From: a virus
Reading direction: 5' to 3' (one strand)
Length of the DNA stretch: 31,782 nucleotides
IMG/VR virus record: IMGVR_UViG_3300010354_000345
Coordinates: 1-31,782 of that record
The notes under the pieces were generated by a model. It worked only from the letters and a program-made list of their open reading frames with translations, was not told the origin of the DNA and made no database searches. The position numbers were made by a program, and so were the translations under genes. Of this stretch, positions 9,873 through 31,782 are shown piece after piece. The stretch's first letter is position 1. Each line of letters opens with the position of its first letter.

Positions 9873-12800
9873 ATGGCTTACGACCAAAGTATTTTCAACA
9901 TCAACCCATACTACGACGATTACGATTCTCAAAAGGGATTTTTGAGGGTATTGTTCAAGCCTGGATATTCTATTCAGGCTCGTGAACTAACAACTGTCCA
10001 AAGCATACTTCAAGATCAAGTATCAAAAATAGGAGATCATCTTTTCAAAGACGGATCTCGTATAGTTGGCGGTGCAATAACCGTTAGAAACGCATATTTC
10101 ATAATGTTGAAGGTTGGAGAAGGAACCGCTTTTCAGGGAATCACGGACTACTCTTTCGTTCTTGGCGCAACATTAAAAAATTCAGACGGTTCAATCCGAG
10201 CAGTGGTGTCCCATTATCTCAAACCAGATAGCACAGACGGAAATCTTGTTCTGGTTGTTGACTTCATTTCTGGTTCGTCTTTTGAACTAAACACCAATTA
10301 TACTCTGGAACTTTCAGATCAAACATCAACCACATATACCGTAAAAACAGAAATTGATAGTCGTGGGCGAGGATCGTGTAAACTAATTTCTATAACCGAT
10401 GGCATATTTTACATAAACGGATTCTTTATTAGAAACTTTGCCGAGGTTTTCTCCCCCTACAGAATAGATAATGGGTTTAGAGATTTTTCTTTTACCCAAA
10501 CATATAAATTTGATCTATTGTCTCGTAAAATAGGGTTTTCTGTTTTGCGAGATATAGTCACAGAAGATGAAGATGGAAGTCTTCGTGATCCATCAATCGG
10601 AACTTATAACTATAACGCTCCTGGTGCTGATCGCTTCAAAATACAGGTTTCGTTGTCACAGACAGACACGATTCAACAAAACCCTGATGATTTTATTGAA
10701 CTTCTGCGATTTGAAGAAGGAAAAATCACAAAGAAGTCCGAGAGAGTTACATATGGAGAAATTGAAAGAACTCTTGCAAGAAGGACATATGATGAATCTG
10801 GTTCTTACATAGTAAAACCATTTGATGTTGATGTCAATTTTGTAAACAACGATCCAGTAGAACCCAATCTAGAAGTAAATCTTTCTTCTGGTAAAGCATA
10901 TGTGTTTGGACACGAAGTTGAAACTAACTATCCAAGAAGCATAGAAATTGCAAAAGCAAGAACAACAGAGAGCGCAAATAACATATCATTTTCTCAAACA
11001 GTAGGAAACTATGTAACCGTAAAGTTTGATCCTGCTTGGGGAATCAGTATAGGCACTTATCTTCCATTGTTTGCAAATGGAACTGCTAAAGTATATTTTA
11101 GAGATTCCACTGGAAATGCTATAGCAGAGGCTAATGTTCACGGTCTTCTCCCTGTTTCCTCTGCATTTACTCAAGGTTCTGTTGGTGGGTTTACCGGAAC
11201 ACGATATAATATGTACTTGTACGGTGTTTCTGGATATGGAAACAAAACTATTGCTGGTGCTTCTACCGCAGTACTCACTCCTCATGTTTCTACACCAACA
11301 TCTGTAATACCAAAAGGAACATGGGGTCAGGCATATCCATCAGTTGGAACAACATTTAGTGATGTTCAAAGAACTGTGGATCAGTCATTGGTATATGAAA
11401 TCAAGCCAGGATATGCTATAGAAAGATTTACGAACTTGTCTTTTTATGGAAGGGTTATTAGTGACATTCTTCCTGCTGATGCTGTGAATTACAATGCTGC
11501 AACCAAAGAAACCACTTACAAAGTAAACTTGTCTTCTTTTGCCGGAACCATACCAAGCACACCTGCTTCTGGCGAGTTTAGGTTTAAAAACTATGGAACA
11601 AACAGCACATCATTTGCAGATGTTCAGCAGATTCAAATCATCAAAAATGATGGTCAGGTATTTTCTCCAGCATTCAAAACAAATTCTTATTCCATAACTA
11701 GCAACAGCACATCAGAATTTATTGTTAGATCCAACGATCCACCGGCTGGTTTTACTGGTGGAAGCCTTCGTGTTGCTTGTCCATATCAGTATTTTGTAAC
11801 AAATTTTGACGATACTACAATCAGAAGAAAAGTCAGCAATACCGCATCTAAAACATTTACTCTATCATCTGAACTAAAAACTGATCCAGATGGAAGAAAG
11901 TATGTTCAATTCCCATATTGGGATGTATATTCTGTTACTTCTGTTCTTCGTTCTGATGGAGTTGATATAACAGCAGACATGGAATTGGATGACGGTCAGA
12001 GAGAAACACATTACGATTACAGTAGACTATACATCAAGCCATCAAAGGCTCCAAACTACGGATCTTCTGTTTCTTTTACTGTTAATTACAAATATTTCTC
12101 TCATGTTGGATATGCGTTTGCTCCTTTTGTGGGTTCGCATTCGTATCCGACATATTCTGAAATTCCTCTATACACCAATCGCAGAACAGGAAAGACTGTA
12201 TCTTTGGCTAATTGTATTGACTTCAGACATTCTGGTTCTGAAAACCATGTGTCTACTGCCAAGCCATATGGTTCTTCTGAAGGATTTGGTAGCGCAGAAT
12301 TTACTGTTGCTTCATATACTCATTATCTGCCAAGAATAGACAAAGTAAAACTGTCTTTAGATCCCATAGACAACTCTGCCAAATTTGAAATTGAATCAGG
12401 AGAACCAGATCTAGCACCTATAGCACCTCCTGACTCTGATGAAAAAATTACTCTAGCGACTCTTACTATTCCGTCGTACACACACAATCCAAAAGATGTA
12501 ACAGTTACTCCGTTTGAAAATAAACGGTTTACGATGGCAGACATTGGAAAGATTGAAAAACGAATTGACGATGTTGAAACCTTTGCAAAACTGTCTCTGA
12601 ATGAAATTGATGTTGAGGCTAAACCTCTTGCTGCAATACTAGGTGTTTCTACAGAACCTTTAAAGACATCAATATTCACAGACGATTTCTTCGGACATGG
12701 TGGATCAGATGTTGTATCAGCAGAACACATTTGTTCAGTTGATTACGAAAACGGAGATCTCCGACCTTTCTTTACGCATCTTCCTGTTACTATATCTACT

Positions 12801-14864
12801 CTGGCTTCTCCAACAATAAGTGGTCTTACCGTTTCTTCTCAAAATATTTGGACACTTGATTACAGTACATCTAATTACATAAACAATCAATCATACACAA
12901 AAACTGTAAAACCAAACTCTAGCAATACGATTAACTGGCTTGGTTTTATTGAATTGGGAACACCAATAGTTTCTGATTTTGATAGAGGCTATCGTCCGTT
13001 TGTAAGAACAAATAGTGTTTTTGAAAATGACAATTGGATTGCTTCTGGAGCAGGTGCACAAGAAGGATTTGGAACTCAATGGAATGACTGGGAGAGTATA
13101 TGGACTGGAATTCAAGATAAAGAAGAAGAAATAGATTTCATTCAAAATCAAATGTTGGCTTTGCCTAGAACATTTTCGTCTTCTAATGTTCCTGGAGTAA
13201 ATAATGGAAATAACAGAGTTGGAGTTGATCGTTCTCAGCCATCGGACGATCAGCGTTTGAAGAGTTATTTGAGAAGCAAACAATTAAGAAATCACACCAA
13301 GGTTCGGGTAGATTCTCGTGTTGTAGATAGAACGGTAGTTCCGTACATTCCTCCAACTAGCATACCCTTTACTGCTTATGGATTGAAACCAAACAGCACA
13401 GGAATAAATGTTTATTTTGATGGAGAACAAGTTCTAACAGGATTGAGTACAAATTCTAACGGTACTTGCTCTGGCGTAATAGGAATTCAGGGTGGAAAAT
13501 TCTTGGCTGGAGAGAAAACTATAAGAGTATCTGATGCTGAAAGTGCACAGAACTCCAATCAAGGTGCAGACGCAATTTTCTATTGTGGTTCTCTTTTTGC
13601 TCAGAGAGATTCTGGTTCTTATTCTACCCGACCTCCAATTTTGAGACGACAGGTGGTTACTAGTGAAGGTATAATTAAAGATCCATTTAATAGAGATGTT
13701 TCTTATGATTCTGTTGAAGATACAGTAGAAAATAATCAATGGACTGATCCTCTGTCTCAAACATTTTTTGTTGATAAAAAAACAACTCCAGAAGGAATTT
13801 TTCTGAAGAATATAACTCTGTACTTTTCTTCAAAGGATACTAGTCTTCCTGTTACAGTTCAGTTACGACCAACCATAAATGGTTATCCATCTCCTTCTGT
13901 TTCTATTCCGTTTAGTACTGTAACTAAACTGCCTTCGTCTGTTGTTGTTTCCAAAACAAATGGAATTCCAAACGGTACAGTATTCACATTCAGTTCTCCG
14001 ATTTATCTTGAGCCAGGAGAATACGCTATAGTGGTTATGACAAATAGTTCCAAATATGAATTGTATTCTGCTGATACTGGTTTGTTGAATTCTTCTGGAG
14101 GTGTATCCGGAACATCTTCTTTGGTCGGAACTTTGTTCTATCCTCAAAATGTTGGTCAAGCGGTTCCAAACAATATTTCAGATATTGCTTTTACTATTGA
14201 CAGATGTTTGTTTACAACCACTTCTGGAATTTTAACTTATGCTATTCCTGCATGGAGTGGTGCTCAAGTTGCAAAAATCTATAACCCAGAGATAATACCA
14301 AATCAGTGTTCCATAAACAGAACACTAGACGGTAAAGTAATGTACAATAACCAAAACATGTGGCCCACCAGCGTTTTCAGTAACAGTACTTCTGTTCAAT
14401 ACAGATTTGCTCGTGGAATCAACAATGCAGTCTCACCTGTCTTAGATATGGGTGCGATTTTTGGTCTTGCTGCAAAAATGACTATAACAGATACACCCAC
14501 AGTTAATTCTCCAACAAGCAGTTATGTTTCCAAAGCAGTAGTGCTACCAGAAGAAAATGTTTCTAATGGTGTGGTTGTTTTGGCTGACTCTTGTATCCCT
14601 ATTGGGTCTTCTATTCAAGTATATTTTAGATACAGTAGCAGCGGAGAATCTGATTTGTTTGATCGTCCTTGGACTCCTATGGTTATGAAAAACGCGTTTA
14701 ACAGCGTGTCTGATATTGACTTTAGAGAGGGGCGTTGGGTGTATACATCTTCAAATATTTCTATTCGTGCCTATCAAATAAAAATAGTCATGCTCGCTCC
14801 TTCGTCTTCTCCGTATAACAAAACTCCAGCAGTAAAGAACCTAAGAGCGGTTACTATACGATGA
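9873..14864 (+). CDS. DUF4815-type baseplate/tail-fibre attachment protein in the gp10 position
   Basis: Very large (1663 residues) virion protein. The N-terminus (FNINPYYDDY, FLRVLFKPGYSIQARELT, then SILQDQVSKIGDHLFKDGS) is the signature I associate with DUF4815, a family found after gp8 in aquatic T4-like phages. A short predicted coiled coil lies at about residues 883-915 (TMADIGKIEKRIDDVE). A conserved PFTAYGLKPNS/YFDGEQV sandwich follows, and a C-terminal module at about 1290-1460 begins DPLSQTFFVD and contains YLEPGEYAIVV. By position it replaces T4 gp9/gp10, so a role in joining fibres to the wedge is inferred rather than proven. An AAAGGAAA Shine-Dalgarno precedes the ATG. The stop overlaps the next start as ATGA, implying translational coupling. 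Family membership is confident; exact equivalence to gp10 is not. Confidence 0.85.
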   Translation: MAYDQSIFNINPYYDDYDSQKGFLRVLFKPGYSIQARELTTVQSILQDQVSKIGDHLFKDGSRIVGGAITVRNAYFIMLKVGEGTAFQGITDYSFVLGATLKNSDGSIRAVVSHYLKPDSTDGNLVLVVDFISGSSFELNTNYTLELSDQTSTTYTVKTEIDSRGRGSCKLISITDGIFYINGFFIRNFAEVFSPYRIDNGFRDFSFTQTYKFDLLSRKIGFSVLRDIVTEDEDGSLRDPSIGTYNYNAPGADRFKIQVSLSQTDTIQQNPDDFIELLRFEEGKITKKSERVTYGEIERTLARRTYDESGSYIVKPFDVDVNFVNNDPVEPNLEVNLSSGKAYVFGHEVETNYPRSIEIAKARTTESANNISFSQTVGNYVTVKFDPAWGISIGTYLPLFANGTAKVYFRDSTGNAIAEANVHGLLPVSSAFTQGSVGGFTGTRYNMYLYGVSGYGNKTIAGASTAVLTPHVSTPTSVIPKGTWGQAYPSVGTTFSDVQRTVDQSLVYEIKPGYAIERFTNLSFYGRVISDILPADAVNYNAATKETTYKVNLSSFAGTIPSTPASGEFRFKNYGTNSTSFADVQQIQIIKNDGQVFSPAFKTNSYSITSNSTSEFIVRSNDPPAGFTGGSLRVACPYQYFVTNFDDTTIRRKVSNTASKTFTLSSELKTDPDGRKYVQFPYWDVYSVTSVLRSDGVDITADMELDDGQRETHYDYSRLYIKPSKAPNYGSSVSFTVNYKYFSHVGYAFAPFVGSHSYPTYSEIPLYTNRRTGKTVSLANCIDFRHSGSENHVSTAKPYGSSEGFGSAEFTVASYTHYLPRIDKVKLSLDPIDNSAKFEIESGEPDLAPIAPPDSDEKITLATLTIPSYTHNPKDVTVTPFENKRFTMADIGKIEKRIDDVETFAKLSLNEIDVEAKPLAAILGVSTEPLKTSIFTDDFFGHGGSDVVSAEHICSVDYENGDLRPFFTHLPVTISTLASPTISGLTVSSQNIWTLDYSTSNYINNQSYTKTVKPNSSNTINWLGFIELGTPIVSDFDRGYRPFVRTNSVFENDNWIASGAGAQEGFGTQWNDWESIWTGIQDKEEEIDFIQNQMLALPRTFSSSNVPGVNNGNNRVGVDRSQPSDDQRLKSYLRSKQLRNHTKVRVDSRVVDRTVVPYIPPTSIPFTAYGLKPNSTGINVYFDGEQVLTGLSTNSNGTCSGVIGIQGGKFLAGEKTIRVSDAESAQNSNQGADAIFYCGSLFAQRDSGSYSTRPPILRRQVVTSEGIIKDPFNRDVSYDSVEDTVENNQWTDPLSQTFFVDKKTTPEGIFLKNITLYFSSKDTSLPVTVQLRPTINGYPSPSVSIPFSTVTKLPSSVVVSKTNGIPNGTVFTFSSPIYLEPGEYAIVVMTNSSKYELYSADTGLLNSSGGVSGTSSLVGTLFYPQNVGQAVPNNISDIAFTIDRCLFTTTSGILTYAIPAWSGAQVAKIYNPEIIPNQCSINRTLDGKVMYNNQNMWPTSVFSNSTSVQYRFARGINNAVSPVLDMGAIFGLAAKMTITDTPTVNSPTSSYVSKAVVLPEENVSNGVVVLADSCIPIGSSIQVYFRYSSSGESDLFDRPWTPMVMKNAFNSVSDIDFREGRWVYTSSNISIRAYQIKIVMLAPSSSPYNKTPAVKNLRAVTIR

Positions 14865-18804: not shown

Positions 18805-21561
18805 ATGGGATCATCACTATTTCTTTCTGGTGGAGTTCAGCAAACGGATCAGTTGATCCAAACGGTGTCTCGTGCCCACTCGTTCTCTATCGGGGATGCG
18901 GTTCGTTTTGATGTTTCCAGTGGAACCTATCAAAAGGCACAAGCAAATGCTCCACTAAACGCTGAAGTAGTTGGAATTGTTTGCAATATAGCACCTGGTG
19001 AATTCAGCATGATTACTTCTGGAAAGATAGATCTCACATCAGTCTCTTCCATGCAAGGTGTCACATCTTCTGTGTTGTTCTTGAGTGCAGTTACTCCTGG
19101 AAAATTAGAAGCCAATCCACCAAGTACTATTGGCTCAATAATTAAACCTATACTCATAAGAAACGAAACTTCTCAAGAGTATATTGTAAATAATTTCTTG
19201 GGTACACAAATTGGTGGTTCTTCCACCGTTGCAATAGATGAAATTCATCCTGTTGGAACCATTATGCCGTATGCGGCTACCGATCTGCCAGATACATGGC
19301 TAAGGTGCAATGGTGCAACTTATGCACTTAGCGCGTATCCTGAACTGTACGCGGCTACTCGTTTTGCTAGTGGTGATCGTGCCCCTATTTACGGGCATGT
19401 GGTTGAAATTGTTATTCCTGCTTCTTCTTACTCGGATGATGATTGGAAAAATGCAGTAGCAGGTGATATTGTCTACATCAATAACCGAACAACAACTGCA
19501 TCCGCATCAAATCCGTCTTCTGCTTCTGCAAATCACGAATTGGTTGGTAAGATTTTGCTTACCACATATAATGGAACATCATCGCCAACAACTACAAGAC
19601 TATCACAGTTTTCAAATTCTCACGGATGGGTTGTTCAAATTTTAGGAAAATACAACTCCTCAAGCAAAACATTTGAACAACAAAATAATACAGTTAAAGA
19701 ATATATTGGATCATATTATTCTAAAGCAAAGGTCTATGCTGGACCTAACTTTGGTGGAACACAGCGTTCAGCAACCTCCACCGGAGCAAATCTGTACTCA
19801 ACATCAATTATTGCGTTCAATGTTCCAGATCTTCGTGGTCGTTTCCCACTAGGCGTGAATTCATCTGCTCTGGCAGAAGGAGAGAGCGAATCAGATTCGG
19901 CATATACTTCGGCTATTACAGGATACACTTTGGGATCATTTGGTGGCGAAGAGAAACACACACTCACAGTTGAAGAGATGCCTTCTCACACCCACACATA
20001 CAAAGATTACGGTGGGACAGTAACAACAACTACTGCTGATCTTGTATCAAACGCATCAGGACAATATACCGATACTCCAACATCATCAATAGGTGGTAAT
20101 GCCTCTCACAACAACATGCCACCGTATCTCACGGTGCAGTACATCATTAAAGCCAAGCCGTATACACGGGCTGCAATTATTGATGGCGTTGATCTGCCGT
20201 ACAACAAATTGTTGATTCGTGATCTTCGTACCAGAAATATAGGCGGTACAAACTCTGATCTGCTGTTCCACACCAATGTTGTAGGTGATGACGGAACAGG
20301 AACTCTGCGAATGCGACTTACCTCTGGCGGTAGTCTTGGTATTGGTACTTCTTCCGTTCCAGATTCTGTTCTTGAAGTTCGTAATCCAGTCTATTCTGTA
20401 CAAATCAGCGGTATCACTGGAAATAACAGCAATTTGGGAATTGTTCAAGAAACAGATTTTACCACAGGACTCACATATGCAAGTAGTGCAACGCAGCACA
20501 CCTCTGGATTGTTCTGGAAGGATTCTTACGATGTAAGATACACAAAACCACTTGCTGGAATTTTCTGTAGTTCAAACTGGTCTAGCGGTTCAGGTATTCA
20601 TTTTGGAACATCAGAGACATATGCTTCAGGAATAGATAAAATTCCTCTTTCCATAATAAACGGAAATATTGGAATAGGTAATCAGACACCGAGTAATAAA
20701 CTGCATATTCGGTTTGCTCAAAATAACAGTGCAACCGTATTTGCTGCTGCTTCGTCCTCAACTGTTGATGGAATTCTTATTGAGAATATAGACCAAACTC
20801 CAGCGTCAGGAAATAAGTGTCGTTTAACGATGGCTACTCGTAGTTCTGGTGCTGGTGGAAACGCATACAGTTCTTATATTTCTCTTACTGCTGTTCACGG
20901 TATTGCAGACCAGACTAATCTGTATATCGGAAGCGAATATTACGGTTCTGGTATAGCAGGGCAATCTACTAATCCCATAATGTACATCGGTGGAAGTTCT
21001 GGCAGAGTAGGAATAGGAACCGATTCTCCAACCGTTGCTCTTGGTGTGTCAGGCGGAATCAATGCAACATCAACCATAACAGCCACATCAGACATAACCA
21101 CCAGTGGAAAATTTGTTGGAAACGGAACCATTCCAATCGGTGGAATCATTATGTGGAGCGGAACATCCATCCCAACAGGATGGGCACTCTGCAATGGACA
21201 GACGGTAAACAGTATCGTTACTCCCAATTTGAGTGGTAGATTTATAGTTGGAGAAGGAACGGGTTATAATAGAAACACTACAGGAGGATCGGATGTAACT
21301 ACTCTAACTGTTGCAAATCTGCCACCACACAGACACAGATTCAGTATGGCTGCACCCTCTGACAAGAATGGACTGGCCTATCTTGGTCAAAATGTTAATA
21401 TTGTGTATCACGGAGCACCAAACGAATTGGAGCAACAAGGAGGGCCAGAAGGCGTTAGAACTGGTCATTGGAGTGCTGACACCGCTCTTGCTGGTTCTGG
21501 AACTGCTTTCAGTCGTCTTCCACCGTATTATGTCTTGGCATATATTATGCGAGTCGCATAA
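18805..21561 (+). CDS. Tail fibre with two tail-collar domains (gp12-like)
   Basis: Fibre of 918 residues. Adaptor module copy 3 occupies about residues 20-135. The first tail-collar domain starts at HPVGTIMPYAA (149), has W.RCNGATYAL, LRGRFPLGV and GGEEKHTLTVEEMP, and carries an H395-x-H397 pair. It closes with NNMPPYLTVQYIIKA near 436-450. A fibrous stretch with three GIGT/P repeats follows. The second collar domain begins IPIGGIIMWSGTSIPTGWAL, with LSGRFIVGEG and an H842-x-H844 pair, and ends LPPYYVLAYIMRVA at the C-terminus. In T4 gp12, His-x-His residues of the three chains bind a metal ion at the receptor-binding tip, so two metal sites are possible here. Its position before the neck genes matches T4 gene 12. 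It has a TAGGAAA Shine-Dalgarno. Domain calls are confident; short-tail-fibre identity is likely but not certain. Confidence 0.88.
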   Translation: MGSSLFLSGGVQQTDQLIQTVSRAHSFSIGDAVRFDVSSGTYQKAQANAPLNAEVVGIVCNIAPGEFSMITSGKIDLTSVSSMQGVTSSVLFLSAVTPGKLEANPPSTIGSIIKPILIRNETSQEYIVNNFLGTQIGGSSTVAIDEIHPVGTIMPYAATDLPDTWLRCNGATYALSAYPELYAATRFASGDRAPIYGHVVEIVIPASSYSDDDWKNAVAGDIVYINNRTTTASASNPSSASANHELVGKILLTTYNGTSSPTTTRLSQFSNSHGWVVQILGKYNSSSKTFEQQNNTVKEYIGSYYSKAKVYAGPNFGGTQRSATSTGANLYSTSIIAFNVPDLRGRFPLGVNSSALAEGESESDSAYTSAITGYTLGSFGGEEKHTLTVEEMPSHTHTYKDYGGTVTTTTADLVSNASGQYTDTPTSSIGGNASHNNMPPYLTVQYIIKAKPYTRAAIIDGVDLPYNKLLIRDLRTRNIGGTNSDLLFHTNVVGDDGTGTLRMRLTSGGSLGIGTSSVPDSVLEVRNPVYSVQISGITGNNSNLGIVQETDFTTGLTYASSATQHTSGLFWKDSYDVRYTKPLAGIFCSSNWSSGSGIHFGTSETYASGIDKIPLSIINGNIGIGNQTPSNKLHIRFAQNNSATVFAAASSSTVDGILIENIDQTPASGNKCRLTMATRSSGAGGNAYSSYISLTAVHGIADQTNLYIGSEYYGSGIAGQSTNPIMYIGGSSGRVGIGTDSPTVALGVSGGINATSTITATSDITTSGKFVGNGTIPIGGIIMWSGTSIPTGWALCNGQTVNSIVTPNLSGRFIVGEGTGYNRNTTGGSDVTTLTVANLPPHRHRFSMAAPSDKNGLAYLGQNVNIVYHGAPNELEQQGGPEGVRTGHWSADTALAGSGTAFSRLPPYYVLAYIMRVA
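18856..19215 (+). repeat. Fibre adaptor module, copy 3
   Basis: Codes for about residues 18-137 of the double-collar fibre. The pattern is AHSFSIGDAVRF, YQKAQANAPLNAEVVGIV, FSMITSGKIDL, VLFLSAVTPGKL and IKPILIRNETSQEYIV. It is the same module as the two copies in the upstream fibre, here at the very N-terminus, which suggests the two fibres attach or stack by a shared element. Confidence 0.7.
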
Positions 21562-26942: not shown

Positions 26943-27215
26943 ATGCAATATTCTCTTATTCATTATGGAACCAGTGATATTGTACTCAACGGAAGAAAGT
27001 ACAAGTTTGAAGATTTTTTAAAAGTCTGCTCTGATTATACCATTTTTGAAGAGTTTACTACACGAGTATATGAAAAAGGAAAGCAGCACTACATAAGCGA
27101 TGGGGTTAATACTTTACACCTGTCAAAACACGATAGTTGCTGTGACGAGTGGTGTGAAAGAGAGTCTCAACTTGCTCATCTACTTTTGAGACTCAAGAAA
27201 GAAAAGGGAGAATAG
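26943..27215 (+). CDS. Hypothetical 90-residue protein
   Basis: Not recognised. It lies between the adhesion cluster and gp13, in line with neighbouring genes. It starts YSLIHYGTSDIVLNGRKYKF, then shows helical runs (FEDFLKVCSDYTIFEEFTTRVY), and ends in a highly charged helix (LAHLLLRLKKEKGE). H63, C66, C67 and C71 could form a small metal knuckle, but the spacing is not a standard motif. There is no clear Shine-Dalgarno before the ATG (ATAAAAATTC), so the start is uncertain; the next in-frame options are not better supported. It might be a small regulator or accessory protein. Moderate confidence that it is expressed. Confidence 0.6.
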   Translation: MQYSLIHYGTSDIVLNGRKYKFEDFLKVCSDYTIFEEFTTRVYEKGKQHYISDGVNTLHLSKHDSCCDEWCERESQLAHLLLRLKKEKGE

Positions 27216-27255
27216 CGACACTGCACATCTCCTAAATACTTGAAAAGGAGACTGT
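27216..27255 (+). promoter_or_regulatory. Intergenic leader before gp13: late-promoter-like box, hairpin and strong Shine-Dalgarno
   Basis: This is the longest gap in the window (40 bases). CTAAATA at 27232-27238 keeps the last six bases of the T4 late promoter TATAAATA. AAAGGAG at 27244-27250 is a strong ribosome binding site for gp13. TCTCCT (27228-27233) can pair with AGGAGA (27246-27251) around a 12-base loop, which would cover the ribosome site in read-through RNA. GGAGA at 27207-27211, in the previous gene, could compete for the same TCTCC. The same six-mer occurs elsewhere in this AT-rich DNA, so the promoter call is tentative. Confidence 0.45.
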
Positions 27256-28011
27256 ATGGCTGTTCCACAAACCCGTCAACAACTAAAAGAATACTGCCTT
27301 CGGGCACTTGGTCATCCAATGATTGAGGTTAATGTGGAAGATTCTCAAATTGAGGATCGTATTGACGAAGCCCTACAGTATTTTGCCAAGTATCACCATG
27401 ATGGTGGTATGAAAATGTATTACAAGTATCAACTGACAAACGACGATGTGACACGAAAGTGGATTGATACTAATCCTGTTGATCCGTCTATAATGACTAT
27501 CAACAGAATTTTTCACATGGGCTTCAATATTTCCACCCACAACATATTTAATATTCGGTATCAGTTGGCTCTAAATGATTTTTATGGTTTGCGAACAGGA
27601 CAAACCAATCTCAACTACTATGTGTCTACCATGCAATATATTGAGATGCTGGAGCAGTTGCTTGACCCAGAAAAACAAGTTAGGTTCAACAAAGTAAACA
27701 ACAGATTGTATATTGATGCTACTGGTGGAGATTTGATTGCTGGAAATTATTTGATGATTGAAGCATATTCAGCCAACAATCCAGAAACAGCAACCGAGAT
27801 TTATAACGATAATTTTCTGAAGAAGTATACTATTGCTTTAATCAAGCGTCAATGGGGAATCAATCTGTCAAAGTATGAAGGTATGCCTCTCCCTGGAAAT
27901 GTCACATTCAACGGCTCTAAAATCTACGAAGACGCACAAGCAGAAATAGAAAAACTAGAAGAGAGTGTGCAACTCAAGTATCAGTTGCCACCCGATTTCA
28001 TCACAGGCTAA
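27256..28011 (+). CDS. 13: Neck protein gp13 (head completion)
   Basis: Neck protein that in T4 joins the filled head to the tail together with gp14. The product is 251 residues against 309 in T4. The N-terminus shows the family pattern TRQQLKEYCLRALGHPMIEV, then VEDSQIEDRIDEALQYFAKYH, followed by YYKYQLTNDDV and RIFHMG. The C-terminal half has YLMIEAYSANNPETATEIY and a KKYTIALIKRQWG helix with GNVTFNGSKIYEDA, the typical ending of aquatic T4-like gp13 proteins. It has a strong AAAGGAG Shine-Dalgarno and follows the one intergenic leader in the window, suggesting that neck and packaging genes form a separately expressed unit. High confidence. Confidence 0.93.
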   Translation: MAVPQTRQQLKEYCLRALGHPMIEVNVEDSQIEDRIDEALQYFAKYHHDGGMKMYYKYQLTNDDVTRKWIDTNPVDPSIMTINRIFHMGFNISTHNIFNIRYQLALNDFYGLRTGQTNLNYYVSTMQYIEMLEQLLDPEKQVRFNKVNNRLYIDATGGDLIAGNYLMIEAYSANNPETATEIYNDNFLKKYTIALIKRQWGINLSKYEGMPLPGNVTFNGSKIYEDAQAEIEKLEESVQLKYQLPPDFITG

Positions 28012-28014
28012 AGC

Positions 28015-28908
28015 ATGGCAGTAAACCCGTATTTTCGCAGGAACAATGTAGGCGAGCAGAACCTACTAGAATCCCTCACGACCGAGGCTATCAAGATTCA
28101 CGGTCACGAGATGGTATACATTCCACGAGAAACAGTAACAGAAGACAAGATTTTGGGAGAAGAGGTTTCCAAATTTAAAGACGCAAACCGTATTGAAATG
28201 TATTTAGAAAATGCAGAAGGGTTTGACGGAGAAAGCGACATGACTCGGTTTGGTTTGGATATTCGTGAAAACTGTACCTTTGTAGTATCAAAGCGTCGTT
28301 TCCTAGAAGTAATGTCTCACAATACTTCAATTCGTGATCTTGGTCGCCCACGCGAAGGCGATTTGATTTATTTTGATTATCCTTACAACTTATTTGAAAT
28401 TAAGTATGTGGAACACGACAATCCTTTCTATCCTCTAGGTCAGAGATATTCTTTTAAATTGTACTGTGAAGCATTCAAGTACACACAAGAAGAAATTGAT
28501 ACAGGTGAGACTGAAATGGATTCTGCGGTTCAAGCGGTTGCAACATACAAGAAACGCTTCACTCTAGGAGCAGGAAGCGGAACCTTTGTTGTTGGAGAAG
28601 AAGTTTATGCTGGTTCTTCAGCAACTCCACATGCGGTTGGACGAGTTGATGCGTACACAGTTACATCGGATGCCACTCCTATTAAATATCTTACTGTTAA
28701 TATAACAAGTAAAAACGGTTTTGATATTGGTGACACCGTTATAGGAAGAACTAGTGGTGCTTCTTATGCAATAACAACCATTTCTAATACAGATACGCTC
28801 ACAACAAATGCAAACATCCAAGACAATGAGGCAATTGACTTGGAAGCCAATCGTGATAACATTTTTGATTTTACCGAGAAAGATCCGTTCTCTGAAGGAT
28901 TGTACTGA
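28015..28908 (+). CDS. 14: Neck protein gp14 (head completion)
   Basis: Partner of gp13 in the T4-type neck. The product is 297 residues against 256 in T4. The N-terminus (NPYFRRNNVGEQNLLESLTT, then EAIKIHGHEMVYIPR) and the central run GDLIYFDYPYNLFEIKYVEH are diagnostic of gp14. An inserted beta-rich segment at about residues 183-265 (GAGSGTFVVGEEVYAGSS, repeated in style by NGFDIGDTVIGRTSGASYAI) accounts for the extra length. The protein ends DFTEKDPFSEGLY. The start is 3 bases after the gp13 stop with only a weak Shine-Dalgarno in the gp13 tail, suggesting coupling. The stop overlaps the gp15 start (TGATG). High confidence. Confidence 0.93.
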   Translation: MAVNPYFRRNNVGEQNLLESLTTEAIKIHGHEMVYIPRETVTEDKILGEEVSKFKDANRIEMYLENAEGFDGESDMTRFGLDIRENCTFVVSKRRFLEVMSHNTSIRDLGRPREGDLIYFDYPYNLFEIKYVEHDNPFYPLGQRYSFKLYCEAFKYTQEEIDTGETEMDSAVQAVATYKKRFTLGAGSGTFVVGEEVYAGSSATPHAVGRVDAYTVTSDATPIKYLTVNITSKNGFDIGDTVIGRTSGASYAITTISNTDTLTTNANIQDNEAIDLEANRDNIFDFTEKDPFSEGLY

Positions 28909-29762
28909 TGTTTACACAGTTTTATAATCAATCTATCCGAAGAATGGTTATTGCTTTTGGTGCATTGTTTAATCAGGTAAGAATAGCAAGAACAGAAAAC
29001 AATAACACAAAATATATTGAGGTTCCTTTAGCATACGCTCCAAAAGAAAAATATAAGGTGCGTCTTGCAGGAGATCCGTATCTACAAAATCCGATGCAGA
29101 TTACCTTGCCACGCATGGCGTTTGAAATAACAGGTTTTGCATACGATCCTGCTCGTAAGCGAAACAGCAATCAGCGGAATATTGTTCGTGATACTAGACA
29201 AACAGGAGTCAAGTTTTCTTTTGCTGAAGTTCCATACAATATTGATTTCGGTTTGTATGTTTATGTTAGAAACATGGACGATGGACTTCAGATAATAGAA
29301 CAAATTCTACCATACTTTTCTCCAGAGTTTGTTACCACTATAAACTTTGATAGCGTCAACACCAAAATAGATGTCCCAATCTATTTGAATTCTGTTTCTT
29401 CCGAAGAAGACTATGAGGGAGATTTTCAGAGTAGAAGAAGCATCATATTTACTTTAAATTTCACGATGAAGTCTTATATCTTCGGTAATGTTCGTAGTTA
29501 CAACGAGATCAGAAAAACCGATGCTAAAATTTACGATTTTAATTACTTCCCAAGTTTCACAGCAGGAAACACCCTAGCAGGAGTGACTGGAATAAATTCA
29601 AGAGTGTTTGTAGGGATAAGCGGACCAAGTGGAGCAAGTTCTGCTAAGTACAACTACACGCCTTTTGCCAAAATTTACGAGTATCAAAATGGTTCAACAC
29701 TTGCTAATGGTGTAACTGTTGATTGGTTGGGAACAACAGGGCTAACAGGCACTACAGGATAA
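28908..29762 (+). CDS. 15: Tail completion / sheath stabiliser gp15
   Basis: Caps the top of the tail tube and sheath and connects to the neck in T4-like phages. The product is 284 residues against 272 in T4. Family landmarks are FYNQSIRRMVIAFGALFNQV at the N-terminus, VPLAYAPKEKYKVRL, LPRMAFEITGFAYDPARK, and VPYNIDFGLYVYVRNMDDGLQ followed by QILPYFSPEF. A phage-variable tail of about 70 residues rich in G, S and T closes the protein (for example TGLTGTTG). The ATG overlaps the gp14 stop, so expression is probably coupled. High confidence. Confidence 0.93.
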   Translation: MFTQFYNQSIRRMVIAFGALFNQVRIARTENNNTKYIEVPLAYAPKEKYKVRLAGDPYLQNPMQITLPRMAFEITGFAYDPARKRNSNQRNIVRDTRQTGVKFSFAEVPYNIDFGLYVYVRNMDDGLQIIEQILPYFSPEFVTTINFDSVNTKIDVPIYLNSVSSEEDYEGDFQSRRSIIFTLNFTMKSYIFGNVRSYNEIRKTDAKIYDFNYFPSFTAGNTLAGVTGINSRVFVGISGPSGASSAKYNYTPFAKIYEYQNGSTLANGVTVDWLGTTGLTGTTG

Positions 29763-29773
29763 AGGAATAATTT

Positions 29774-31782
<2,009 letters not shown>

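Follow-up and report, generated by a model that had tools for sequence, protein, structure and literature searches.

In bacteriophage T4, the histidines H445 and H447 of gp12 form a set of six residues that hold a zinc ion on the threefold axis of the fibre, as described in PMC3004832. Other fibres and spikes use the same His-x-His (HxH) arrangement to bind iron, and the authors of PMC6116203 suggest, without direct evidence, that it has a role in folding; the short fibre of SU10 is described in PMC9509320 as having two His pairs that may bind iron. T4 gp12 has a single tail-collar domain, which Pfam places at residues 344-400, in agreement with the preliminary description of the DNA studied here.

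In the current study, we analysed a fibre gene in a metagenomic virus fragment of 31,782 bases (the whole stretch, hereafter the window). Its product has two collars, one internal (collar 1) and one at the C-terminus (collar 2), and each carries an HxH pair. We consider it probable that a T4-like virus uses this protein as a trimeric adsorption fibre of modular build, in which collar 1 serves as a hub, followed by a variable shaft and an exchangeable collar tip.

Genomic setting and domain layout of the fibre

The genes of the window follow the order of the T4-like baseplate and neck cassette, i.e., gp25, gp6, gp7, gp8, fibres, neck, gp15, gp16 and gp17. It encodes gp25, gp6, a gp7-like wedge protein, gp8 and a DUF4815 protein, together with three large fibre/tail proteins flanking the fibre gene, a LamG protein, two neck proteins, and gp15, gp16 and gp17. 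The fibre gene has the baseplate genes (gp25, gp6, gp7-like, gp8) on one side and the neck genes on the other; in T4, the interval between gp8 and the neck genes is occupied by gp9-gp12 and wac. Among named phages, the terminase is closest to those of Methylophilales phage Melnitz and of cyanophages, with matches of approximately 59-61%. The DUF4815 protein, with a length of 1663 aa (positions 9873-14864; phrog_358, E 1e-238), sits between gp8 and the fibres. Besides, gp16 and gp17 (29774-31782) have a GC3 of 0.47-0.65, compared with 0.24-0.39 for most other genes of the window. Since the gp17 homologues in related contigs are likewise rich in GC3 (0.51-0.62), this looks like a property of the genes and not a join between contigs. 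Positions 26952-31782 align with contig L023 at 84%.

Two tail-collar domains in one fibre had been proposed from the sequence, and this was confirmed with Pfam. The Collar profile (PF07484) matches the protein twice (whole-protein E 6.1e-17), with separate matches at 1.3e-10 (36.7 bits) and 1.2e-8 (30.4 bits), both above the curated cut-off of 24 bits, so that the protein belongs to this family by either match. The Gp10_C profile also matches. The two HxH pairs reported earlier, HTH at residues 395-397 and HRH at 842-844, are the only ones in the 918-aa protein, and in an alignment of 91 collar rows H395/H397 and H842/H844 share both columns with the metal pair H445/H447 of T4 gp12. With 18 His in the protein, about 0.35 HxH would be expected by chance, and the homology of the domains is a stronger argument than this count. 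The placement of collar 1 inside the chain and of collar 2 at its end also holds, with closing motifs NNMPPYLTVQYIIKA at residues 436-450 and RLPPYYVLAYIMRVA at residues 904-918, i.e., the C-terminus. Residues 451-775 separate the collars and contain three repeats of the GxxGIG type, starting at 509, 620 and 733; with its 325 residues, this stretch fits the earlier wording of about 330 residues of fibrous repeats. An insert of approximately 145 residues (residues 191-335) interrupts collar 1 and, judged by this layout, makes it more than a bare gp12-type collar. The coordinates of all features are given in Table 1.

Table 1. Features of the fibre gene, in positions of the window
Feature	Positions	Strand	Remarks
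Whole fibre gene	18805..21561	+	918 aa plus stop; ATG start
N-terminal domain	18805..19218	+	residues 1-138; kept in every complete homologue; candidate virion anchor
Collar 1, first core segment	19219..19374	+	residues 139-190; Pfam Collar 151-191
Insert domain in collar 1	19375..19815	+	residues ~191-337; beta-rich model, moderate confidence
Collar 1, second core segment	19816..19950	+	residues 338-382, NVPDLRGRF...GG
Collar 1 head cassette	19951..20112	+	residues 383-436; present in 11/27 homologues
First HxH, H395-T-H397	19987..19995	+	
Collar 1 closing strand	20113..20154	+	residues 437-450
Junction right after collar 1, YIIKAKPYTRAA	20140..20175	+	pattern YIIKAxPYTRAA, 27/27 homologues
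Shaft	20176..21129	+	three G-x-x-G-I-G repeats, residues 509-525, 620-635, 733-748
Collar 2, terminal collar and head	21130..21558	+	residues 776-918
Second HxH, H842-R-H844	21328..21336	+	equivalent pair invariant in 36/36 aligned terminal collars
Collar 2 closing strand RLPPYYVLAYIMRVA	21514..21558	+	C-terminus

The AlphaFold monomer models reached a mean pLDDT of 60.3 for collar 2 and of 58.5 for residues 1-500, with values below 50 in the head of collar 1. Poor monomer models are to be expected, since the equivalent domain of gp12 is intertwined. The N-terminal part was modelled better (pLDDT 70-91 over most of residues 11-130). Among the matches listed, the model of the N-terminal domain (~12-137) resembles phage capsid decoration proteins with weak to middling scores (Z 5.1-7.6), and on this model we propose the domain as a candidate virion-anchoring domain. 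The model of the insert domain matches many ATPase and EF-Tu barrels among the matches listed (Z 4.7-5.3); kinship with these proteins was set aside, and we read the likeness as a common barrel arrangement. A Foldseek search of both monomer models against the PDB gave nothing at an E-value of 0.001 or better. A chain of the collar family was absent among the best 50 matches listed for the collar 1 model, which carries little weight because the head is badly modelled. All matches listed for the collar 2 model with Z of at least 2 are collar-type or fibre proteins, with scores that are too weak on their own (Z 2.0-2.9). Sequence comparison of the terminal collar gave the solved chains 9qgo, 6ov6 and 9nxk at E-values from 3.3e-19 to 7e-14, and solved fibre chains match terminal collars along their length (9qgo, E 3.3e-19; 6ov6, 7.5e-17). 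A literature search by PDB code yielded only chance matches for 9cuy, a further solved fibre, and none for 9nxk.

Inner collar, head and tip across the fibre family

A whole-protein search of viral contigs found no relative of the fibre. Homologues were reached through a search with a neck gene, followed by alignment of the N-terminal domain and collar 1, which gave 40 distinct homologues, all on metagenomic contigs. Twenty-seven of them, including that of the window, are complete at both ends, and the counts below use these 27. All 27 have the N-terminal domain of approximately 140 aa, collar 1 as recognized by Pfam, an insert of 91-151 aa within this collar, and the pattern YIIKAxPYTRAA directly after it. 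The profile phrog_523 matches the N-terminal domain and the start of the collar (55-184) in the window protein, and it matches 21 of the 27 homologues. In all 27, the chain goes on past collar 1, by 248 to 1280 residues, and grouping of the final 160 residues gave 14 tip clusters. The terminal collar makes up one of these clusters with three members (the window, L060 and L061), Pfam confirming two collars in both L060 and L061, while Peptidase_S74 tips are found in five homologues. The presence of collar 1 and its junction in every homologue, against 14 clusters of tips, suggests that the tip is exchangeable, and on these alignments collar 1 is a conserved internal hub of the fibre family.

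The head of collar 1, measured from the core GG to the closing strand, has a bimodal length. In 11 homologues it measures 54-126 aa and always contains HxH; in the other 16 it measures 26-32 aa and never does, and there are no lengths in between. Across the family, the metal-type head behaves as a cassette that is either present or absent. Heads with several HxH occur in L038 (five) and L062 (two); these heads (L038:8001-10622 and L062:5265-7556) recall the needle of T4 gp37, but lie inside the fibre. On a tree of the N-terminal domain, the distribution of the head calls for three or more changes and that of the collar tip for two. The nearest relatives of the window on this tree, L042, L028 and L039, all lack the head, so that the window protein may have gained its collar 1 head recently. 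HxH in both collars is found in the window alone among the 27 homologues. Two metal-stabilised heads are possible for the window protein on the basis of its sequence, and they do not appear as a family-wide feature, as the collar 1 head is missing from 16 of the 27.

We also surveyed 200 distinct collar ORFs from 227 records with a profile of collar 2; the records were fetched by their likeness to these collars, and the counts are thus not an unbiased rate. More than one collar start was flagged in six ORFs, and five were kept, i.e., those of the window, L060, L061, L079 and L099, the second collar of L099 being a partial match. The remaining ORF, from L004, was dropped, as its single collar is merely split by an insert. 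The collar-2 profile is strongly matched by 71 complete ORFs of 141 to 1848 aa, with the match at the C-terminus in 67, which supports that the collar 2 module caps many fibres. HxH lies within the collar match in all 71, a figure biased by a profile built from rows with HxH. Both His are invariant in the 36 terminal collars that were aligned, and phrog_1800 matches the terminal collar of the window protein. Near relatives of this collar were also observed in contigs of Verrucomicrobia and Bacteroidota genomes (L188-L226), nearly always at the extreme C-terminus of ORFs of 140-1308 aa. A literature search, which covered few subscription papers, found no published description of a fibre with two collars.

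Assembly of the fibre and origin of its second collar

Considering these results, we propose a scheme for the fibre in which the N-terminal domain (1-138) probably joins it to the virion. Collar 1 forms a hub with a core of three segments, bearing the insert at one loop and the optional HxH head cassette at another. Past this hub, the chain runs into the variable shaft and then into the exchangeable tip. In the virus of the window, this tip is another collar with an HxH pair of its own; collars of this kind terminate many phage fibres, and this one probably makes contact with the host. For each of the two collars, the HxH of three chains probably hold a single metal ion on the threefold axis, locking an intertwined head as in gp12. 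The family shows that a collar, which usually forms the end of a fibre, can also be a conserved hub in its middle, with a metal-type head that comes and goes as a unit and a tip that is exchanged. If both heads bind the host, one trimer would have two points of recognition.

It is possible, and we keep it as a tentative reading, that collar 1 is a structural joint only, its HxH head binding neither receptor nor metal and the tip being responsible for all recognition. This is a sub-case of the modular scheme and not its opposite. The complete lack of the head in 16 of the 27 homologues agrees with it, as do the internal collar of Pectobacterium phage CB7 gp31 and the collar-like domain of T4 gp10, both without HxH, but if the head had no role, e.g., in metal-assisted folding, the occurrence of HxH in 11 of the 11 heads would be hard to account for. 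The natural series of fibres with (11/27) and without (16/27) the head permits a direct test of whether the buried metal would aid folding, act as a stiffener or belong to a receptor-binding head.

A more elaborate form of the modular scheme, which we regard as unlikely, takes collar 1 and its head as a branching hub, with two separate recognition heads acting at once, one at collar 1 (side-stepped or axial) and one at the tip. The closing strand of gp12 and of gp37 returns to the collar once the head is complete; where an internal collar bears a head, the three chains would therefore have to pass this axial, metal-locked head. If the branching arrangement were true, the loss of the head in 16 homologues and its exchange for heads of up to 126 aa with five HxH (L038) would represent a tuning of how many contact points, and of which kind, lie along one trimer.

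The preliminary description went further and suggested a fusion of two gp12-type fibres. Its premise of two collars with HxH aligned to that of gp12 stands, and the window is the sole homologue of 27 in which both collars carry HxH in the gp12 columns. An end-to-end fusion giving two metal-stabilised receptor-binding heads per trimer nevertheless seems quite unlikely to us, because collar 1 is internal in 27/27 complete homologues, whereas a collar tip is present in 3/27 and the other 24 have no second collar. Such a fusion also predicts proteins with the N-terminal domain and collar 1 that stop at collar 1, and 0/27 do so, although the related profile phrog_523 may end at this collar (collar start at 522 of 673).

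The two collars could also have arisen by duplication, and the preliminary description had proposed their phylogeny as a means to distinguish a recent duplication from separate origins. In the collar tree, the 27 collar 1 rows form one group (SH-aLRT 98), collar 2 of the window pairs with collar 2 of L061 (SH-aLRT 85), and the two collars of the window do not pair. The same tree recovers the two collars of L079 as sisters with a support of 100, which serves as a positive control and indicates that internal duplication happens elsewhere. Over 120 positions, collars 1 and 2 of the window are 30.8% identical, while identities between collar 2 and the tips of other fibres reach 51.2%. Moreover, collar 2 of L060 and L061 resembles collar 2 of the window and not their own collar 1 (25.5% for L061). 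On the other hand, AU tests rejected neither a tree with the collars of the window as sisters (p 0.089; free tree 37 log units better) nor one with collar 2 as sister to the collar 1 group (p 0.297; free tree 16 log units better). A recent duplication was therefore rejected on identity and tree, though with a non-significant AU p-value, while an ancient one is not rejected by the second of these tests. Overall, we consider it quite unlikely that collar 2 is an internal duplicate of collar 1. Acquisition by module exchange is favoured from the tree and the identities, and not proven, as both AU tests are non-significant.

Finally, an assembly artefact joining two metagenome contigs is extremely improbable and was put aside: although the record is a metagenomic fragment and its fibre departs from its relatives beyond collar 1, L060 and L061 (3300043466_001410 and 3300035670_001486), from other metagenomes, share the order N-terminal domain, collar 1, shaft and collar 2, and there is no marked step in composition within the ORF (GC3 0.25-0.35 across its parts).

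Comparison with known fibres

Both collars of the window protein resemble T4 gp12, in which an HxH head and then a closing strand come after the collar, with HxH columns equal to those of both window pairs. Collar 2, with its HxH at 842-844 and its closing strand at 904-918, is a terminal collar of the gp12 type. In contrast to the window protein, gp12 has its only collar at the C-terminus, and the N-terminal parts of the two are unrelated by Pfam. The gp12 middle domain (PF09089) and the receptor-binding domain (PF14928), both found in T4 gp12, are absent from the window protein at E-values up to 1, and we thus did not file it as a gp12 orthologue. The gp9/10-like N-terminal domain (PF07880) and gp10 domain 3 (PF22670), both found in T4 gp10, are also absent at E-values up to 1, and Gp10_C is the only gp10 profile that matches. 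The C-terminal collar-like domain of T4 gp10 has no HxH.

T4 gp37 resembles the family in that its Pfam Collar (816-863) precedes seven HxH (883-998) and the closing strand FNYIVRLA, and the collar 1 heads of L038 and L062 come close to this pattern. Unlike collar 1 of the window, the collar of gp37 belongs to the terminal tip, and nothing follows its closing strand. An internal collar is found in CB7 gp31 (554 aa), at ~150-305, followed by approximately 250 residues of Ig-like appearance, but gp31 has no HxH whatever and no second collar. The solved short tail fibre 9cuy corresponds to this protein, based on a 40-residue match at 100% and an equal length. The minor tail proteins gp21 and gp22 of Arthrobacter phage CastorTray have an HxH collar in their first ~210 residues, followed by ~230-245 more, and thus represent a case from a named isolate of an internal collar with a metal-type head; they differ from the window protein in being short and in having a C-terminal part that is not a collar.

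Among the PHROG profiles of tail collar fibres, phrog_523 covers the N-terminal domain and the start of the collar, and phrog_1800 the terminal collar; none of the PHROG profiles spans the whole two-collar protein. A further parallel in layout is an ORF of L079 (4122-7433, 1104 aa), a contig of an unrelated virus, with two Pfam collars and HxH in both, but with a collagen-like shaft and repeats, and with collars that are sisters at 100, i.e., a true duplication. The two-collar arrangement is uncommon, yet assembled from well-known parts.
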